DNA of 41,932 nucleotides. It comes from a virus. Location of the stretch: the IMG/VR virus record IMGVR_UViG_3300048836_000983, positions 1-41,932 of that record; one strand, given 5' to 3'. Of this stretch, positions 18,652-31,810 are shown piece by piece; the stretch's first letter is position 1, and every line of letters starts with the position of its first letter. The notes under the pieces were generated by a model that had not been told where the DNA came from, did no database searches, and saw only the letters and a list, made by a program, of their open reading frames with translations. The position numbers and the translations under genes are program-made.

Positions 18652-18913
18652 GCTCTCCCGGCTCGTTTGGACGGTAGCTGCCTGGGATGATTACCAGTAT
18701 TGGCAAACTCAAGACCGCAAGACGCTCAAAAGGATCAATGCGCTCATCAAGGATTGTTTGCGACATCCTTTTGAGGGAATTGGAAAGCCCGAGCCCTTGC
18801 GAGAAAATCTCGCCGGATTTTGGTCGCGCCGCATCGACGACGCCAATCGGCTCGTCTATTGCGCCGAAGATACCGAGTTGGTGATCATCGCTTGCCGTTA
18901 TCATTACGATTAA
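18638..18913 (+). CDS. yoeB: Toxin YoeB (RelE-superfamily mRNA interferase)
   Basis: 91 aa (E. coli YoeB is 84 aa). Shows W-T-V-A-A-W-D-D-Y-Q-Y-W, K-R-I-N-A-L-I-K-D-C, H-P-F-E-G-I-G-K-P-E-P-L and the C-terminal W-S-R-R-I-D-D-A-N-R-L-V-Y ... R-Y-H-Y-D. The conserved Glu, Arg, His and C-terminal Tyr of the YoeB active site are all present, so it should be functional. It cleaves mRNA at the ribosomal A site when YefM is lost. Its stop overlaps the stop of the large terminase on the opposite strand. Confidence 0.96.
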   Translation: MERDRLSRLVWTVAAWDDYQYWQTQDRKTLKRINALIKDCLRHPFEGIGKPEPLRENLAGFWSRRIDDANRLVYCAEDTELVIIACRYHYD

Positions 18914-20754
18914 AGATAGGTCGATGACACTGCCATGCGTCTGCGCTTGGTCGGCTGCATGGGCTGGACATATGAGGGGCTTGGCGTCTGCTTCTTTGGT
19001 CGCACTGGCAGTGCGTCTGCTCTGCGGTTTAGGCTCAGGCCCATGGACATGAGTCCGTGCAGAGCCGCGTAGGCATAGACGCGGCAGTCCAGCGCCTCGT
19101 TGCGACGACTGTCGGGCTTGACCCATTCCCGTTTGGCGTGGCCCTTCACGTACCGGGTGCGCACGCGCTCTGCGGTTAGCTGCTCGAAATATGCAGCGTC
19201 CCGGTCCATGGGAAAATGCATGTACCCGGGTCCCGGTTCTGCTTTTTTAAGCCGGGCATGGATGGCTTCCTTGGCCGCGTCCACGCCCAAGGTGAACAGA
19301 TTCACCCGGCCCTTGTTGTTTTTGCTCGGGCGCCTGGGCCAGATGGGCTTTGCGCCCGCTGAACCCTTGATCGCCCAGATGCGGCGGCGCTCCTTGCCTT
19401 TGCAGAACGCGTATGCAGCCAGGGTATGATGGCCGCCAGTATCCAGGCATGCCGCCTCAATGGTCAGGCCAGAAGCAAGCGTCTCGTGCTCAAAGGTCTG
19501 CGACAGATAGCCTTCCAGCTCGTTCCATATCTGTGGCCCGGACGGATCGCCCCAGAGCACGCGGTAGTCCACGGACCAGGATTCTTCATCCCTGGCCCAG
19601 CCAACAACCTCCAGTTCCAAGCGGTCATCTTGGACGTCCACTCCGCAGGTCAGAACCGCGACCTCGGCGAGTACTGCCGGTCCATATCGTTCCCGCTTGG
19701 CCATGAGCCCTTCCGCATCCAGTTCTTCACCCTCACGGTCCTCCCACGTTTCCGCCAGCTTGGTATTCACCCAAACCTTGAGCCGTACAGGGTCATCCTT
19801 GGACGCCTTGTGCTCCATGGCGATTTCCGCCCAGGTCAGCCACGGAGAATACAGACTCGACATCCAGAAACCGGCAGTTTTGCCATCACCTTTGGCGGTC
19901 GCCCTCCACGCACCCCGCGCCAGCAAGGACGGTTTGCGAAATTCCGGATGGACATGGTCACAGTGCGGGCAGTGCCAGGACGCTTCTTCGATTTTTCCTT
20001 CGGGCCACCGGATGTCTTTCCAGTAAATGACGCTGCACACGCCGCACTGGTCGCAGGGGACCTCGAATACGCGCCTGTCTGATTCCTGATAAGCCGCCTC
20101 AATGCGTGAGAAATCCTTGATCGTCGGCGTTGAGCACAGGTAGATTTTGCGATTCGTGAATGTCGCGGCGCGCTGCACCGCCAGGTCGACAGGATCGCCC
20201 TCGCCGCCAGCATCGCCAGGGTAGGCGTCAATCTCGTCCAAGAACAGGTAGCGCACCGGCATGGAGCGCAGACCTACGGCGGAATTCGCACCGGTCATGA
20301 CCAGCACACCGCCCGGGAACTCCTTCATAAGGAGCGTGTTGCCCGAATCGCGACTCCTGGGATCCTTGACCCGCTCAGCCAACTCCGGACTGCCTTCGAT
20401 GAGGGCCGCAATGCGCTGTTTCGAGACTCGCTTCACTGCCTCTACGGTCGGCTGCACAAGGAGCATGGGGCCCGGCGCGTGATGCACCACAAATCCCACC
20501 CAGTTGAGCCCGACTTCAGTACCGCCGATCTGGCCACCTTTCATGAATACTACGCGTTCGAACCTGGCCTTGGGCGAGAGCGCGTCCATGATTTCCGCCA
20601 AATACGGGGTGCGCTGCGTGGACCAGCGGCCAGGCTCCGCAGATGCTACCGATGAGAGCATGCGGTGGCGATTGGCCCATTCGTCGACCGACAGCATTGG
20701 ATCTGGCGCAAATCCGCGATAGAATTCGTCCTTCAAGATGCGCTGGATTTGCAT
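18910..20754 (-). CDS. Terminase large subunit (GpA family)
   Basis: 614 aa, as expected for lambda gpA-type terminases (641 aa). It cuts concatemeric DNA and pumps it into the prohead. ATPase: K-G-G-Q-I-G-G-T-E at residues 72-80 (Walker A position) and Y-L-F-L-D-E-I-D-A-Y-P at 169-179 (Walker B). A C-D-Q-C-G-V-C ... C-P-H-C segment near 235-266 is a probable zinc-binding insert, common in this family. The C-terminal nuclease begins near V-L-T-C-G-V-D-V-Q-D-D-R-L-E. Its own small subunit is about 8 kb upstream, an unusual separation. Confidence 0.95.
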   Translation of the reverse strand: MQIQRILKDEFYRGFAPDPMLSVDEWANRHRMLSSVASAEPGRWSTQRTPYLAEIMDALSPKARFERVVFMKGGQIGGTEVGLNWVGFVVHHAPGPMLLVQPTVEAVKRVSKQRIAALIEGSPELAERVKDPRSRDSGNTLLMKEFPGGVLVMTGANSAVGLRSMPVRYLFLDEIDAYPGDAGGEGDPVDLAVQRAATFTNRKIYLCSTPTIKDFSRIEAAYQESDRRVFEVPCDQCGVCSVIYWKDIRWPEGKIEEASWHCPHCDHVHPEFRKPSLLARGAWRATAKGDGKTAGFWMSSLYSPWLTWAEIAMEHKASKDDPVRLKVWVNTKLAETWEDREGEELDAEGLMAKRERYGPAVLAEVAVLTCGVDVQDDRLELEVVGWARDEESWSVDYRVLWGDPSGPQIWNELEGYLSQTFEHETLASGLTIEAACLDTGGHHTLAAYAFCKGKERRRIWAIKGSAGAKPIWPRRPSKNNKGRVNLFTLGVDAAKEAIHARLKKAEPGPGYMHFPMDRDAAYFEQLTAERVRTRYVKGHAKREWVKPDSRRNEALDCRVYAYAALHGLMSMGLSLNRRADALPVRPKKQTPSPSYVQPMQPTKRRRMAVSSTYL

Positions 20755-20775: not shown

Positions 20776-20878
20776 TAAAGATGATAAATTCCGACTATAT
20801 AGCTTGGCTTCTCCTTCAGTTAGAGCAAATGCTGAACTCAGGCGAAGGCACTGAACCCAAAACCAAAGGAGAAGCAAG
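20776..20878 (+). promoter_or_regulatory. Leader repeat, copy A
   Basis: First of four homologous leaders (others at 21121, 22580 and 23001). Conserved blocks: AAAGATnATAAATT; TATATAgCTTGGCTTCTC at 20796; TAGAGCAAATGcTGaACTCA; AGGCGAAGGC; then CAAAA and the ribosome site AAGGAG. The distance from TATATA to ATG is 83 bases (83-89 in all copies). CTC...GAG can pair around a loop. It may be a promoter plus 5' RNA element. No consensus -35 box is seen in the usual place. Confidence 0.75.
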
Positions 20879-21079
20879 ATGGATACAAAGATCAGGCAGC
20901 ACGCACAGTTCGACGAAAATGACTACGCCTACCTTTCAACCAAAGGGTGGACAGATGAGGAAATCCTGGAGCGTTGGGATCAAGAGCAAAAAGATGGAAA
21001 TGGTCCATGCCGCTGGGATCATCCAACAGCCAAGGCAAAATTGGAGAGCGTGCTCAAAAATCACGGGATTTTCAAATAA
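20879..21079 (+). CDS. Small protein of the leader-repeat array, unknown function
   Basis: 66 aa, acidic and hydrophilic, not recognised. A short central motif Y-L-S-T-K-G-W-T-D-E-E-I-L-E-R-W looks like a compact helical domain; the C-terminus has W-D-H-P-T-A-K-A-K-L. A good AAGGAG ribosome site precedes ATG. It is preceded by leader copy A and followed within 10 bases by a strong intrinsic terminator, so it forms a monocistronic cassette. Possible roles include host takeover or DNA mimicry, but nothing in the sequence decides. Confidence 0.7.
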   Translation: MDTKIRQHAQFDENDYAYLSTKGWTDEEILERWDQEQKDGNGPCRWDHPTAKAKLESVLKNHGIFK

Positions 21080-21088
21080 TTGAGATCC

Positions 21089-21115
21089 AGGCCCACCTTT
21101 GAGTGGGCCTCTTTT
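21089..21115 (+). terminator. Intrinsic terminator after cassette A
   Basis: Perfect 8-bp stem AGGCCCAC/GTGGGCCT with a 6-base loop, followed by CTTTT. It directly follows the 66-aa gene and precedes leader copy B, making each cassette an independent transcription unit. Confidence 0.85.
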
Positions 21116-21120
21116 GGTGA

Positions 21121-21227
21121 AAAGATAATAAATTTCAGATATATAACTTGGCTTCTCTTTCAATCAGAGCAAATGATGGATTCAGGCAAAGGCGAGGAAG
21201 GCAAACTCAAAAACACGGAGCAGCACG
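21121..21227 (+). promoter_or_regulatory. Leader repeat, copy B
   Basis: Second homologous leader, with AAAGATAATAAATTT, TATATAACTTGGCTTCTC (from 21140), AGAGCAAATGATGGATTCA, and GGCAAACTCAAAAA before the gene. CTCT and AGAG can pair around a 7-base loop. The GATAAT at its start resembles a -10 box, but the same position in the other copies is poorer. TATATA to ATG is 88 bases. Confidence 0.8.
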
Positions 21228-21581
21228 ATGGCAACGCAGATTCCCACCACGCAGAACACCGACTGGGGCTTTTACGGATCCATGGAAGAGAAAGCCAAGC
21301 AGGCCTGGACTCTGGCCATGACAAGCATCGCCCAGGCGACCAACACGGACCTCCACCAGGTGCAGACTTTCCTGGACAGCCGCCACGGACGACACTTTGC
21401 CGACGATGTTCGAAACAACCTGCATGATGGGATGAAGCTGGCCGAGGCTATCGGGCAGGCCACCTCCAGATGGATGACCTGGAAGATCAGCAAGTCGACC
21501 CAGCGCGAGTTTGGGATCCCAAAGGGGCTGCCTTACCTGACAGGCTTTGTGATCCACTGCGGGATCCTCGCAGAACAATAA
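21228..21581 (+). CDS. Conserved small phage/plasmid protein, unknown function
   Basis: 117 aa, unnamed; the pattern F-L-D-S-R-H-G-R-H-F-A-D-D-V at residues 50-63, I-G-Q-A-T-S-R-W-M-T-W and G-I-P-K-G-L-P-Y-L-T-G-F-V near the C-terminus looks like a widely spread hypothetical protein of proteobacterial mobile elements. It is mostly helical. The upstream GGAG site is modest. It is the first gene of the three-gene cassette B and is followed by the first of two nearly identical GAAA-loop hairpins. Confidence 0.75.
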   Translation: MATQIPTTQNTDWGFYGSMEEKAKQAWTLAMTSIAQATNTDLHQVQTFLDSRHGRHFADDVRNNLHDGMKLAEAIGQATSRWMTWKISKSTQREFGIPKGLPYLTGFVIHCGILAEQ

Positions 21582-21588
21582 CCACTTT

Positions 21589-21620
21589 GGGCCAGGGAAA
21601 CCTGGCCCTTTCATTTTAAC
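21589..21620 (+). terminator. Hairpin with GAAA tetraloop, copy 1
   Basis: GGGCCAGG-GAAA-CCTGGCCC (21589-21608), followed by TTTCATTTT. Very stable stem with a GNRA loop and a U-rich tail. It lies between two closely spaced genes, so it may terminate part of the transcripts or protect the 3' end of the upstream message. The same 20-base hairpin recurs at 21969. Confidence 0.75.
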
Positions 21621-21636
21621 CCATGGAGGACATGGC

Positions 21637-21957
21637 ATGAAGGTCCAAGCTCAAGAAACAAAGATGCGTTACCCAGACGGCACCCCGTACATATTCGAGA
21701 ATGTTCGAACTTTCGTCGAGCAGCACGGGCATAAGGTTTGGAGTGAATTGTGCGATGCAATGCCCGCAGACACTTGGTTTTCGGTCGGTGCGGCCGCAGG
21801 GCAATTGCCCAGTCTTGCCGGGCAAGATGATCCCGAACATTGCCTCAAGGCGGTGCTTTGCGCGATCTTGGCGGATTACACAGACCGCCCTGACGATTAT
21901 GAGCACCAGTCGCCGGTGGCATTTGGGGATTACGAATTCAACAACGCATGCATCTAG
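21637..21957 (+). CDS. Small protein of cassette B, unknown function
   Basis: 106 aa, acidic, not recognised. Features: M-R-Y-P-D-G-T-P-Y-I-F-E-N-V-R near the start, an aromatic-rich centre, C-L-K-A-V-L-C-A-I-L-A-D-Y and the C-terminal F-G-D-Y-E-F-N-N-A-C-I. The ATG has a strong GGAGG site. It is bracketed by two almost identical GAAA-loop hairpins and shares the leader of the gene before it. Two paired Cys residues are not arranged as a metal site. Confidence 0.7.
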   Translation: MKVQAQETKMRYPDGTPYIFENVRTFVEQHGHKVWSELCDAMPADTWFSVGAAAGQLPSLAGQDDPEHCLKAVLCAILADYTDRPDDYEHQSPVAFGDYEFNNACI

Positions 21958-21968
21958 GTCGCATTTCC

Positions 21969-21996
21969 GGGCCAGGGAAACCTGGCCCTCTCATTT
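21969..21996 (+). terminator. Hairpin with GAAA tetraloop, copy 2
   Basis: The same stem-loop as at 21589 (GGGCCAGG-GAAA-CCTGGCCC) at 21969-21988, followed by TCTCATTTCC. The tail is less U-rich than in copy 1, so termination may be weak and the element may act as an RNA stabiliser or processing site before the DUF3489 gene. Confidence 0.65.
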
Positions 21997-22018
21997 CCAA
22001 ACACGGGAGGACATTGCA

Positions 22019-22522
22019 ATGACGGAACAAACCACACTTACCGAGCGGCAGTTGGAACTGATCACCAAGGCGGAAACAGACCATGGCGGAATGATTGAGC
22101 CGCTGCTCGATTTGAAGGGCGGGGCCAAGGTCAAAATGATCGGCGCTCTCTCTCGGCGAGGGCTGATCCAAAAGCAAGACAACCAGTGGCGAACCAGCGC
22201 CTTGGCCCAGTCCATCGTTCGCGGTGACGCGTACCCCATCGCACCGGCAAACAAGCAGGCGCCCGATTGCGAACCGACCCAGGTGCGCAGGCACAGCAAA
22301 CAGTCCATGGTGGTGGACATGCTCTCAAGGCCCGAGGGCGCGACCATTGAGCAAATCGTGGAACGCACTGGCTGGCAAGCGCACACGGTACGCGGCGTAT
22401 TCGCAGGCGCCCTGAAGAAGAAACTCGGCCTGACCATTGCCTCCGAGAAAACCTCTGGCCCGGGTGGAGCTCAGCGGATTTATCGAATCGCCCAGGGTGC
22501 GCAGCCAGGTGTTCCGAAATGA
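22019..22522 (+). CDS. DUF3489-family protein with two winged-helix-like segments
   Basis: 167 aa from ATG at 22019, preceded by GGGAGG; the open frame extends upstream but overlaps the previous gene in a different frame. The C-terminal half carries the DUF3489 signature: S-K-Q-S-M-V-V-D-M-L-S-R-P-E-G-A-T-I-E-Q-I-V-E-R-T-G-W-Q-A-H-T-V-R-G-V-F-A-G-A-L-K-K-K-L-G, an HTH-like fold, then G-G-A-Q-R-I-Y-R-I. The N-terminal half resembles a second, degenerate helix-turn-helix (G-A-L-S-R-R-G-L-I). DNA or RNA binding is likely; regulation of the cassette array is a possible role. Last gene of cassette B. Confidence 0.85.
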   Translation: MTEQTTLTERQLELITKAETDHGGMIEPLLDLKGGAKVKMIGALSRRGLIQKQDNQWRTSALAQSIVRGDAYPIAPANKQAPDCEPTQVRRHSKQSMVVDMLSRPEGATIEQIVERTGWQAHTVRGVFAGALKKKLGLTIASEKTSGPGGAQRIYRIAQGAQPGVPK

Positions 22523-22579
22523 AATCCAGCAAATGGGTGCATGGCAAACCTCGAGCGATTCCTCGTGGGGCATGGAATA

Positions 22580-22684
22580 AAAGTGATAAAATTCAATTAT
22601 ATAACTTGGCTTCTCTTCGAAGTAGAGCAAATGATGGAGTCAACGAAGGCAAGGAATTTGAAACTCAAACCGAGGATAAGGAAA
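22580..22684 (+). promoter_or_regulatory. Leader repeat, copy C
   Basis: Third homologous leader, starting at AAAGTGATAAAATT and containing TATATAACTTGGCTTCTC (from 22598), AGAGCAAATGATGGAGTCA, GGCAAGGAA, GAAACTCAAA and a GGATAAGGAAA ribosome site. CTCT/AGAG can pair around TCGAAGT. TATATA to ATG is 87 bases. It lies 57 bases after the DUF3489 stop, with no clear terminator in between. Confidence 0.8.
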
Positions 22685-22963
22685 ATGAACGCACAGACCA
22701 CCAGACCCGAGCTCAAGGACATCATTGCCAATCAATACCGCGAGGATGGACGCGAGGCCCTCCTGACAGCCAGAGGGTCGCTTGAGCGGGCCATGCGAGA
22801 ACTCGACAGATACCTGGACAGGTACGAGCAGGCCGAAAGCACGCAGGACATGATCAACAACCTGAACTGGGCAATCAACGAACTGGCCTCGAACATTTTG
22901 GGCAATGCGAGGCTGGACATGCTGGCCCACGCACAGGCCAAGCTCGCAAGCCTGCCGAAGTAA
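22685..22963 (+). CDS. Small helical protein of cassette C, unknown function
   Basis: 92 aa from ATG at 22685; the frame is open further upstream, but that part is the leader. Highly helical and charged: R-G-S-L-E-R-A-M-R-E-L-D-R-Y-L-D-R-Y-E-Q-A in the middle, then N-L-N-W-A-I-N-E-L-A-S-N-I, likely forming a helical hairpin or dimer. No named family recognised. It is monocistronic, between leader C and a terminator at 22973-22995. Confidence 0.7.
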   Translation: MNAQTTRPELKDIIANQYREDGREALLTARGSLERAMRELDRYLDRYEQAESTQDMINNLNWAINELASNILGNARLDMLAHAQAKLASLPK

Positions 22964-22972
22964 GCCAGCCTG

Positions 22973-22995
22973 GCCCGGCCACACGCCGGGCTTTT
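22973..22995 (+). terminator. Intrinsic terminator after cassette C
   Basis: GCCCGGC (22973-22979), loop CACAC, GCCGGGC (22985-22991), tail TTTT. A textbook terminator just 9 bases after the stop of the 92-aa gene and directly before leader copy D. Confidence 0.88.
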
Positions 22996-23000
22996 CATGT

Positions 23001-23110
23001 AAAAAGATCATACAAATTGGATATATAACTTGGCTTGTTCTCTGATTAGAGCAAATGATGGACTCACCACAGGCAAGGAACGCAAACTTAAAAACCGAAG
23101 GAGAAGTTTG
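23001..23110 (+). promoter_or_regulatory. Leader repeat, copy D
   Basis: Fourth homologous leader: AAAAGATCATACAAATT, TATATAACTTGGCTT (from 23022), then a 3-base shorter hairpin loop (CTCT-GATT-AGAG), AGAGCAAATGATGGACTCA, GGCAAGGAA, CAAACTTAAAAA and a strong AAGGAGAAG site. TATATA to ATG is 89 bases. The shortened loop with an unchanged stem supports an RNA hairpin here. Confidence 0.8.
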
Positions 23111-23287
23111 ATGAACGCACGGACCAACGCATTGATCGAAAAGATTGCACAGAAACATCTCAACATTGATACGCTGAAAACCAGAAACAGCGATTCACTT
23201 GATTTTCATGATTGCCCAGTCTGGGCCATTAAGATTGCGCTCGAGGATGCCTATCGTGCAGGGATGGCAGCAGCGCAGAGCAAATAG
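23111..23287 (+). CDS. Small DUF6900-like protein, cassette D
   Basis: 58 aa from ATG at 23111 (the longer reading from 23030 is leader). Sequence has K-I-A-Q-K-H-L-N-I-D-T-L-K-T-R, S-L-D-F-H-D-C-P-V-W-A-I-K-I-A-L-E-D-A-Y-R-A-G, which I associate with the DUF6900 small proteins often found near DUF3489 genes; this recall is tentative. Strong AAGGAG site. No terminator of the usual form was seen directly after it; the next gene, on the opposite strand, ends at 23387. Confidence 0.72.
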   Translation: MNARTNALIEKIAQKHLNIDTLKTRNSDSLDFHDCPVWAIKIALEDAYRAGMAAAQSK

Positions 23288-24048: not shown

Positions 24049-26106
24049 TTATATCTTGAAGCGGGAAACCTGCTCTCTTAGGCGTTCAGCTAACTGTGAG
24101 AGCTCCGTAGCGCTTTCCTGGACAGTCTGGCTGCTTGCAGTCATCTCATCTGAAGCGGTGCGTACCTCGGCGATGTCGGAACTGATGGAGTGGGTCATAG
24201 AGGAACTGGCGGCCACATTGGTGTTGATTTCGGTGATCCCTGTGGAAGCCTGACCAACGTTTTCGGCAATGTCGCGGGTAGTCACGGACTGCTCTTCCAC
24301 CGCCGTGGCGATGGTTCCGACTATTTCGTTCATCTCTGCAATGACGCTTGTGATTTCTGAAATGTCACCTACGGTTTGAGACGTCACAGACTGAATCCCT
24401 GTGATTCGCTCACGGATATCTTCCGTTGCTCGAGCGGTCTGCTGAGCCAGTTCTTTGATTTCATTGGCCACGACCGCAAACCCCCGTCCGGCCTCACCAG
24501 CCCGCGCCGCTTCAATGGTAGCATTAAGGGCCAGCAGGTTTGTCTGGGAGGATATGGCGGTTATAGTGGCGGTTACCGCGCTTATCTCTTTGGCAGCCGA
24601 ACCCAGCTGGTCCACACGGCCGGATGTGGCCTGGGCCTTGGATACAGCGTTTGCCGTCGTACTCCTCGCCCGTTCGGAGTTTTGGGCGATTTCCTGAATG
24701 GTCGCAGACATTTCTTCGGCTGCTGACGCTACGGTAGTCATGTTCATGGAGGCCTGCTCCATGGCTGCGGAGACGGAGTTCATGCTGCTACTGACTTCTT
24801 CGGCCGATGTACTGACCGTGTTGGCCATACCCGCAGTCTGGGATGAACTTTGGGTCATTTGGGCGGAAATGCTGGAGAGCTGCGTAGAGGCAGTGGCAAG
24901 GGACTGGGTGGCAGTGTTGATCTCGCCAAGCATTTCTTTGGTGCGACCAACCATAGTATTCAAAGCTTCGGAAAGGTGTCCGATGGCATCCTTGGCGGGA
25001 TGGCTGAATGTAATTGTGTAATCGCCTTCGGCAACCAGCAAGCTTTTGGACGCGAGTTGGTTTAACGGCCTAGCGATGCCACGGATCAAGAGCACAGCGA
25101 TGAGTACGCCGAGCAGCATGACGGCGATGCCAACGAAGACGCATTTAGTGATGATTTCTGTATCTAATCCACGAACCATCTGTGCATCACTCAGACCTAC
25201 GCCAAGATGCCAGTCCCATGGCTCAAAATAATGAGTGAATGTACTCTTCCGCTCTCCTTCCCACAGGTAATCGAGAAAGCCATCCTTATGAGTGCGAAAA
25301 ATTTCTCCAATTCCTTGAACTTCAAAAAGGTTCTTCCCTTCGAGGGTAGGGTGTACGAGGACATTTCCCTTGGAATCGTAGACATAGAAATAACCAACTC
25401 CGGCTGCTTTGACGGTGCTCAACATATCTCGAAGCTGCGGAGTGAGTATCTTTCGTCCAACGAAGAGCACTGCTACGATTTTATTTTCGGCGCCACGCAC
25501 GGGCTTGTAGGAAGTCACATACCAGTCATCGACTACGAAGGCCCTACCGGTATAGGTGTTGCCGCTCATGACGGCCTTATACACAGGGCTGTCCGCAGGA
25601 ATGAACGTATCTATAGCTCGGCTATCGTTTACTCGCACGTTGGTGGAAACCCGCAGCAGTTTTCCATCGAGCACCTGAAAGATGGTTGTAACGCCTCCGG
25701 TCAGGGATTGTACCTTGTCGACGATTTCCGTATTGCCGTTAATTACCGTACTCCCGAGTCTGAGTCGGGGAATGCTAATACTCTCAGAGGCCCTGCTGGC
25801 TTGGTTGGTGATGGTTTTGTCCAGAGTATAACTCATGTCCAGTTGAAATAAACCGTAATGATTCAATTCTCCTTCCAGGATGGTCATATCGCCGGAAAGC
25901 TTTTCCAAAAGCAGGGAATTCTGTGCCTCTAAAGAAGCGAAGACGGAGTCGTTCATGTTTTCCAAGGCATCCTTGCCGAGGCTTTGAAGCCCGTCTTTTA
26001 CTAGGATGGTGGTCACGATGATGACCGAGACAATCGAGAGCACGAGGATGGACAGGATCCCTGTGAACAATTTTGTAGTAAACTTAACGGACTGGGTGTT
26101 GAGCAT
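24049..26106 (-). CDS. Methyl-accepting chemotaxis protein (Cache sensor, HAMP, MCP signal domain)
   Basis: 685 aa, complete. Membrane segment 1 at residues 14-36, then an extracytoplasmic sensor (about 40-315) of the Cache_3-Cache_2 type ([35 protein letters not shown]), membrane segment 2 at 322-342, HAMP to about 395, and a full MCP signalling region with the tip around [30 protein letters not shown]. No CheR-docking pentapeptide at the C-terminus (ends R-F-K-I). It would feed into CheA/CheW of the host. Very unusual among phage genes. AAAGAGG precedes ATG, and it has its own terminator. Its right edge coincides with loss of the end of a DUF7220-type gene. Confidence 0.97.
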
Positions 26107-30796: not shown

Positions 30797-31075
30797 TTAT
30801 GCCTTGTCTGAAAAAACTTCGTCGATGGTCTTGGCGTCGAGGATACGCTCTGCCCAGACGTCGAGCTGCTCCGGCGAGGAGTTCATGAGTCGTTCCTGCA
30901 GGCGCAGATCGATGATGTTTTTGCCGAAGCGTTTGACAAGCTGGCGGTGCAGGATGGCTGCGCGGCCCTTGGCCTCGCCTCTGGCCTCACCTCTGGCCTC
31001 GCCTTCCTTCCGGCCTATGGCCTCACCTTCCGAGATCCATTTTTCGCTGAACAGCGGGAGTTTATCTGCAAGCAT
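30797..31075 (-). CDS. Internal RpnS within the Rpn gene (predicted internal start)
   Basis: An in-frame ATG at codon 246 (31075) is preceded by a full GAGGTGA ribosome site (31087-31081) and a 5-base spacer. It would give 92 residues, exactly the length of the detached copy downstream. Internal translation of the C-terminal domain as an antitoxin is established for Rpn proteins of other bacteria; here it is inferred from the strong site. Confidence 0.7.
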   Translation of the reverse strand: MLADKLPLFSEKWISEGEAIGRKEGEARGEARGEAKGRAAILHRQLVKRFGKNIIDLRLQERLMNSSPEQLDVWAERILDAKTIDEVFSDKA

Positions 31076-31810
31076 GGCTATCACCTCTTCGAGTTCGGTT
31101 ACGTCGGGTATCTGTACGCTTTCGCCCAGACGTTGTCTGAGCACCCGTTTGGCCCAGACTGTCAGAGCCCGACGCAGGCTCAGATATTTGGGTCCACTAA
31201 ATATTTGCATAAAGCGAGCAAGGTCCAAAGACAAGTCCTGGAGGTCATCTCTGCGCTCCATGCGCACAAAGAGACTCGCCGCGCTCTCGTTCTGTAGGCT
31301 TTCTTCCGGCGTATGCCGAGCGTCCACGAGAAAGTAGCGCAGGCTCGGGTGGTACTTGGCCAGGAAGCGCGAGGTCGGAACGATCAGTTCGGAGACTTCC
31401 TCTCTGGCGTTCCAGGCAGAGGCTCCCCGGTAGAGCACCAGTGGGAAGACCGGTGGCAAAAGTTCTCCGGTTTTGACGGCGCCTGACTTAATCAAGTCCT
31501 GGTACAAGAGGCCCACGTAGACCATGATACGCACAGCCATCCACGGGTCAATCTCGCTTTGAAATTCGATGAGCAGGTACACGTAGAACCACTGGCCGCG
31601 AAACTTGACCCGCCAGATGACGTCGTCATGGCGTTCACGCAAATCATCGGTGACGTAGGAGCCGTTTTGCTTTTCAAGAGTCGAGAAGTCGAGATGGCTC
31701 ACCCACTCTTCAGGTACGAAGTCCCGGATAAGACTCTCGACCATCTCCTGGTGGCTGAACAGGAGCTTGTACGATTCGTCGTGCGGTGTGTTTTCACGGG
31801 TGCTGGCCAT
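30797..31810 (-). CDS. rpn: Rpn-family PD-(D/E)XK nuclease (recombination-promoting nuclease / transposase_31 type)
   Basis: 337 aa, usual length for Rpn proteins. N-terminal H-D-E-S-Y-K-L-L-F-S (residues 10-19), then the catalytic core D62-D63-V-I-W, V-Y-L-L-I-E82-F-Q84-S-E and R94 in M-A-V-R-I-M-V-Y, matching the family's D...ExQ active site. Residues 246-337 form the C-terminal DUF4351-like domain with five tetrads (EAIG, RKEG, EARG, EARG, EAKG). Full-length Rpn is known as a toxic DNase acting against phage. Bounded by terminators at 31852 and 30412, it is a separate module in the phage genome. AGGAG precedes ATG. Confidence 0.92.
   Translation of the reverse strand: MASTRENTPHDESYKLLFSHQEMVESLIRDFVPEEWVSHLDFSTLEKQNGSYVTDDLRERHDDVIWRVKFRGQWFYVYLLIEFQSEIDPWMAVRIMVYVGLLYQDLIKSGAVKTGELLPPVFPLVLYRGASAWNAREEVSELIVPTSRFLAKYHPSLRYFLVDARHTPEESLQNESAASLFVRMERRDDLQDLSLDLARFMQIFSGPKYLSLRRALTVWAKRVLRQRLGESVQIPDVTELEEVIAMLADKLPLFSEKWISEGEAIGRKEGEARGEARGEAKGRAAILHRQLVKRFGKNIIDLRLQERLMNSSPEQLDVWAERILDAKTIDEVFSDKA

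Follow-up and report, generated by a model that had tools for sequence, protein, structure and literature searches.

A repeated promoter-like leader in front of unrelated small genes of an AcaML1-related virus and of many prophages

Background

In cluster K mycobacteriophages, the elements termed ESAS, which are repeated non-coding stretches of about 46-50 bp placed before several unrelated, mostly non-structural phage genes (PMC3203893, PMC11373665), had no known role when they were described in 2011 (PMC3203893); since then they have been interpreted as SigA-like promoters whose two hexamers lie 17-18 bp from each other (PMC11373665). Another described arrangement is that of the morons, phage genes that carry a promoter and a terminator of their own, are expressed in the lysogen and benefit the host, for which criteria have been published (PMC5567305). 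Here we analyse an array of four leaders in front of small genes in a viral DNA stretch of 41,932 bases (IMG/VR virus record IMGVR_UViG_3300048836_000983, the whole of which we call the window), together with the wider leader family to which we assign the array.

The leaders resemble ESAS in preceding several unrelated genes, in having a pair of -35- and -10-like hexamers at a comparable distance (17-18 bp in ESAS, 16-18 bp in the leaders), and in that the element usually stays with its gene family from one phage to another. They differ in that the sequences are unrelated and the host bacteria belong to the gammaproteobacteria, broadly defined, and in two features that belong to ESAS, namely an imperfect inverted repeat of 15-17 bp, of which no counterpart is conserved across the leader variants, and a frequent pairing with SAS at the start codon. 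Three units of the window, each made of a leader (the putative promoter), one gene and a terminator-like hairpin (found after three of the four genes), resemble morons, as they do in lying beside the terminase gene, opposite to late transcription, with genes outside the structural core. Morons mostly occur singly and their promoters are unrelated, whereas here one promoter family would serve many genes, and the units outside the window often have no terminators. A full-text search with GCGCGTTCATAC, with most subscription journals outside its coverage, found no published description of the element and returned a single paper, which deals with the mapping of DNA breaks; the A. caldus genome paper (PMC3826726) does not contain the word promoter, nor was any mention of the leaders found in it. 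The family apparently represents real, widespread and hitherto undescribed repeated phage promoters; hundreds of related prophages carry the leader before at least two dozen unrelated small genes, which appear to have been swapped behind it.

Results and discussion

A repeat search of the window returned one four-copy family of 91 nt (starting at 20777, 21121, 22579 and 23003), with 63-78% identity to copy 1. The pattern TATATARCTTGGCTTSTY matched four times in the window as against 0.06 matches expected from shuffles, and the leader profile scored 93-101 bits on the four copies, which are its own training set, while no other site in the window exceeded 2.2 bits. The four homologous leaders of the original prediction are therefore real, and its distances from TATATA to the start codon (83, 88, 87 and 89 bases) and its intrinsic hairpin after the gene in three of the four units (Table 1) were likewise recovered. 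The prediction had further described the genes behind the leaders as unrelated to each other, and the four proteins are indeed mutually unrelated, but copies 3 and 4 remain alike into the first five codons (ATGAACGCACRGACCA; 22665-22700 and 23091-23126) of their otherwise unrelated genes, a likeness that is possibly a conversion or duplication tract.

Outside the window, the family is defined by a 32-nt core, CTTGGCTTC-N10-AGCGCGTTCATAC. The pattern GCTTGGCTTY-N{8,16}-AGCGCGTTCATAC was found in at least 120 viral stretches, many of which had two or three copies, always with the same internal spacing. It also matched in 10 of 369 gammaproteobacterial genomes (in the GTDB sense, drawn evenly), where a reversed control pattern gave no match, and in none of 142 alphaproteobacterial genomes. 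Under a relaxed definition, the collected loci, most of them prophage or viral contigs, yielded 645 core copies, a count that describes the family and is not a census, the loci having mostly been found via the leader or via the phrog_8020 protein. A gene follows the core in 618 of these copies, at a median core-to-ATG distance of 65 nt, with 98% lying within 58-72 nt. By sequence, the encoded proteins fall into 30 clusters; a few of these consist of frames that are misread or fragmentary, leaving about 25 real unrelated families, among them DUF6900, DUF3489, phrog_8020, DUF2924, DUF932 and an HTH_17 protein. Selection of contigs by the phrog_8020 protein alone gave 76 with enough upstream sequence, and the best-match score placed the leader or a near variant in 74 of them; one further contig picked in this way, L446, carries a leader with a 16-bp spacer. 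Matches thus number in the hundreds before unrelated small open reading frames, well beyond recent duplication, as the original prediction had anticipated; the compensatory stem changes that it also expected were not among them. A looser pattern, TTGGCTTN{6,20}AGAGCAAATG, was dropped, its matches in genome contigs looking like chance.

Among named phages, the closest is Acidithiobacillus phage AcaML1 (JX507079), with 70-73% DNA identity in pieces that cover late genes and the leader region. Beside its terminase gene, and opposite to it, AcaML1 carries three leaders of the form GCTTGGCTT-N11-AGCGCGTTCATAC, which precede a DUF6900 gene and the orthologues of the 92-aa and 117-aa genes of the window; a fourth leader precedes a DUF2924-recombinase module. 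Orthologous genes and leaders thus occupy the same place by the terminase in both phages, whereas the cassette order differs, and the AcaML1 leaders have a 17-bp spacer and GTTCAT where those of the window have 18 bp and AATGAT. The second box, AGCGCGTTCATAC in the AcaML1-type family, is AGAGCAAATGATGGA in the window. Since all four genes behind the window leaders have homologues behind the family core in other contigs (51-69% identity), we treat the window leaders as a diverged branch of the AcaML1-type family. Partial intermediates exist in Eleftheria terrae (L486, with TCAGAGCGTGAATAGGGTCATC) and in L451, which has CAGCGCGTCAATGGAGTCATC where copy 3 has GATGGAGTCAACG.

The leaders share a promoter-like layout: TTGNNN is separated by 16-18 bp from a -10-like hexamer with a final T, after which come six bases and a pyrimidine-purine step at the expected start. 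The upstream hexamer is TTGGCT in nearly all leaders and agrees with TTGACA at four of six bases, as a -35 of the sigma-70 type would. The spacer is 17 bp long in most leaders, 18 bp in all four of the window and 16 bp in L273 and L446, within the range of such promoters. Among 170 non-redundant leaders, the -10 hexamer is GTTCAT in 128 and GTTACT in 15, with GTCAAT, CTCAAT, GTGAAT and others in the remainder; the predicted -7 position is T in 96%, the predicted -1 a pyrimidine in 98% and the predicted +1 a purine in 91%. The boxes keep a constant distance, whereas the spacer between them is nearly free in sequence, except for a conserved AGCGC or AGAGC that adjoins the -10.

The start-site reading was fixed before the following test was made. 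As anchors, we took sites with a -10-like box, a ribosome site and a start codon but without CTTGGCTT, the controls being anchors without a start codon. TTG stood exactly 17 bp upstream in 5 of 11 anchors as against 0 of 122 controls. The five hexamers concerned are TTGATA, TTGATC, TTGCTA, TTGATG and TTGCTG; some of these sites may have descended from CTTGGCTT, with TTG kept and the rest changed, as expected for a -35. In L246 (3240-3320) and its relatives L247-L254, DUF6900 genes are preceded by TTGATA-N17-GTTCAT without the CTTGGCTT box, the 17-bp spacing having been checked on L246; this element is probably a distant branch of the same promoter.

Based on these observations, we consider that the leaders, each a complete promoter with a short 5' untranslated region, are members of a single promoter family carried by phages, and put the probability of this reading at roughly 0.8; a start signal in the DNA is a better reading of them than a structured RNA. 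The reading rests on (i) the terminator-like hairpins that end just ahead of leaders 2 and 4, (ii) the AcaML1 array, (iii) the fixed distance to the start codon over the 645 copies and the constant box spacing, (iv) the base preferences around the predicted start and the TTG test, (v) the lack of RNA structure, and (vi) the module switches centred on the leader, the last two being detailed below. The phage-specific promoter of the original prediction is thus supported by the geometry together with the TTG test. As to the first point, leaders 2 and 4 begin 11 bp past hairpins of this kind, and the promoter must therefore lie inside the leader, barring readthrough.

Several points weigh against this reading. 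The -10 is poor for sigma-70: in most cases it is GTTCAT, in which T takes the place of the expected A(-11); the AATGAT of the window has both A(-11) and T(-7), but agrees with the consensus at only 8 of 12 bases in all, and a strict sigma-70 scan does not flag the window leaders. Because of the missing A(-11) and the silent scan, we file the leaders as promoter-like and not as canonical sigma-70 promoters, and for the same reasons an extra factor is plausible. The conserved AGCGC and GAAC by the -10 are not explained by sigma-70 alone. Finally, the window variant was found in no other contig or genome searched: exact window-type patterns had no match in viral contigs, and with three mismatches allowed, the 369 genomes gave two matches against one control match, which is chance. 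Its link to the family consists of TTGGCTTC, AG-N-GC at the same spacing, the shared genes and the partial intermediates.

Other candidates for the signal were examined and rejected. TATATA and TAAATT were both rejected as the -10, since neither has a conserved -35 suitably placed before it or an equivalent in relatives; TATATA, which is thus probably not the -10, lies in an A/T-rich stretch upstream of the -35. The consensus spacings of sigma-54 and sigma-32 promoters, as commonly given, misfit the core. A dyad operator GAAC-AGCGC-GTTC was discarded on the ground that its right half changes without its left, and a leader peptide from the conserved ATGATGGA on the ground that the frames differ between copies by a 1-nt indel and that its ATG is absent from relatives.

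Weighing a structured RNA and an antitermination site

One alternative is a structured 5' RNA element (a riboregulator, or an element acting on translation) whose transcription begins at a more distant upstream promoter; the original prediction had raised a 5' RNA element together with its phage-specific promoter, and had noted a CTC(T)/(A)GAG hairpin that is kept while its loop varies. This pairing is possible in all four copies, with a C.A mismatch at the fourth pair in copy 1; the spacing from TTGGCTT to the AGAGC box is, however, exactly 11 nt in every copy, so that the loop variation comes down to a shifted CTC in copy 4. In favour of an RNA element, the leader ends in the ribosome site, copy 4 retains the CTC/GAG pairing through its shifted 5' arm, and a stem of at least 4 bp within the core forms in 44% of leaders compared to 36% with shuffled spacers. 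Against it, 144-170 non-redundant leaders gave no pair and no consensus structure in RNAalifold, no base-pair covariation and no folding excess (mean folding z -0.1 to +0.3), and the middle pair of the proposed hairpin forms in just 9% of 170 leaders. Neither the array of the window nor that of AcaML1 matched any Rfam family, and the same holds for 14 related loci. The conserved, covarying structure of a cis-regulatory RNA is thus absent, leaders 2 and 4 closely follow terminator-like hairpins, and we regard an RNA element as improbable.

Slightly less probable still is an unstructured site for antitermination or RNA-protein binding (nut- or put-like), with one long transcript passing through the terminators. 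It would account for the position of leaders 2 and 4 after terminator-like hairpins and for the strong conservation of the core sequence. Such a site needs a promoter upstream, yet no conserved promoter-like block was seen upstream of the core in the same leaders, and the core itself has -35/-10 geometry with substitutions that retain TTG at 17 bp.

Probable module exchange at the leaders

Among 483 distinct leader regions, 227 pairs have the upstream 200 bp in common and unrelated downstream genes, while 493 pairs have the downstream gene in common and unrelated upstream sequence, these pairs being non-independent and the analysis centred on leaders by design. The switch point lies mostly at +27 to +54 of the core when the upstream part is shared, and at -3 to -29 when the downstream part is shared; L271/L288, L301/L390 and L296/L381 are clear mosaic examples. 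The junction data support, and do not prove, recombination in the leaders, in keeping with the original suggestion that cassettes are collected by exchange at this point. A leader that serves chiefly as a DNA site for recombination and cassette capture, without any part in transcription, is the least likely of the alternatives. In its favour, the modules on either side are swapped with junctions at the leader, and the cassette order differs between the window and AcaML1. Against it, such a site needs neither a strict start-codon distance nor TTG at 17 bp, no dyad is kept across variants (a -10 of GTTACT or GTCAAT breaks GAAC...GTTC), and the junction counts carry the limits just given.

The variable parts and spacers of the leaders generally follow the gene family and not the contig neighbours, and a general homogenisation of leaders within phages was rejected on this ground for other contigs. 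In the window, by comparison, the leaders are alike outside the core too, their upstream block being 72% identical; pairs from the same contig in other cases reach 37%, though the stretches compared differ slightly. The four window leaders look homogenised, and, since copies 3 and 4 are in addition alike into the first codons, this would fit duplication or conversion within this phage lineage.

Under the promoter reading, RNA polymerase would start at the leader, about seven bases past the -10 hexamer, on a promoter composed of an A/T-rich UP-like stretch, the -35 TTGGCT, a spacer of 16-18 bp and a degenerate -10 ending in T, followed by the ribosome site, and each leader would drive one small gene or a short operon. 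The copies, including that of the DUF2924-recombinase module, would then form one co-ordinated regulon, a likely set that the original prediction had raised as a possibility; an extra phage or host factor may read the conserved AGCGC, and homologous recombination in the leaders may swap the genes behind them. A bolder version, which we offer tentatively and think doubtful, is that a phage-encoded transcription factor or a non-standard sigma reads AGCGC/GAAC and that the element provides the prophages' exchange homology for small (perhaps defence or counter-defence) genes, as a promoter doubling as a cassette-exchange site. That the DUF3489 protein is the regulator is no more than a guess. Small phage genes whose function is unknown are difficult to detect and classify, and a shared start signal makes it possible to catalogue the accessory genes in this group of prophages; such a signal also lets one predict co-activation of the small genes with the recombinase module and ask for the controlling factor, while the mosaic junctions make promoter-based homologous gene swapping testable.

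Features of the array and its gene neighbourhood

The array (Table 1) adjoins the terminase gene (18910-20754, GpA type) and is oriented opposite to late transcription, the late genes running leftward from the terminase to a lambda-type portal and an S49 protease. Terminators are repeated in the array like the leaders, 21589-21616 and 21969-21996 being 28-nt copies at 96% identity; a hairpin scan flagged no intrinsic-terminator-like hairpin 3' of the DUF6900 gene.

Table 1. Positions of leaders, terminator-like hairpins and genes of the array in the window
Feature	Position	Strand	Remarks
Leader 1 (whole)	20777-20878	+	UP-like 20777-20803; ATG at 20879
Leader 1 promoter parts		+	-35 TTGGCT 20804-20809; 18-bp spacer; -10 AATGCT 20828-20833; predicted start A 20840; then ribosome site
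66-aa gene	20879-21079	+	Homologues elsewhere behind AcaML1-type leader (59% identity to L271)
Terminator-like hairpin	21089-21110	+	After 66-aa gene, directly before leader 2
Leader 2	21121-21227	+	UP-like 21121-21147; -35 TTGGCT 21148-21153; 18-bp spacer; -10 AATGAT 21172-21177; predicted start A 21184
117-aa gene, phrog_8020	21228-21581	+	Homologues behind leader in AcaML1 and most of 76 contigs picked by this protein alone
Terminator-like hairpin	21589-21608	+	After 117-aa gene; near-identical copy at 21969-21988
106-aa gene	21637-21957	+	No leader of its own
Terminator-like hairpin	21969-21988	+	After leaderless 106-aa gene; copy of 21589-21608
DUF3489 gene (PF11994)	22019-22522	+	No leader in window; leader present in many relatives
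Leader 3	22579-22684	+	UP-like 22579-22605; -35 TTGGCT 22606-22611; 18-bp spacer; -10 AATGAT 22630-22635; predicted start A 22642
92-aa gene	22685-22963	+	Homologue of AcaML1 gp30, itself with leader
Terminator-like hairpin	22972-22992	+	After 92-aa gene, directly before leader 4
Leader 4	23003-23110	+	UP-like 23003-23029; -35 TTGGCT 23030-23035; 18-bp spacer; -10 AATGAT 23054-23059; predicted start A 23066
DUF6900 gene (PF21841, 58 aa)	23111-23287	+	Leader common in relatives

The 106-aa and DUF3489 genes are leaderless despite terminator-like hairpins just upstream of them. Near the other end of the window lie a primase-like D5_N gene and an AAA_24 gene. A complete-looking gene for a methyl-accepting chemotaxis protein (MCP), with Cache_3-Cache_2, HAMP and MCP signalling domains, stands between phage genes at 24049-26106 on the minus strand; a phage-carried chemoreceptor gene would be unusual. 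A gene for a YhgA-like putative transposase (PF04754) with a DUF4351 tail is also found inside the phage contig, at 30797-31810 on the minus strand.

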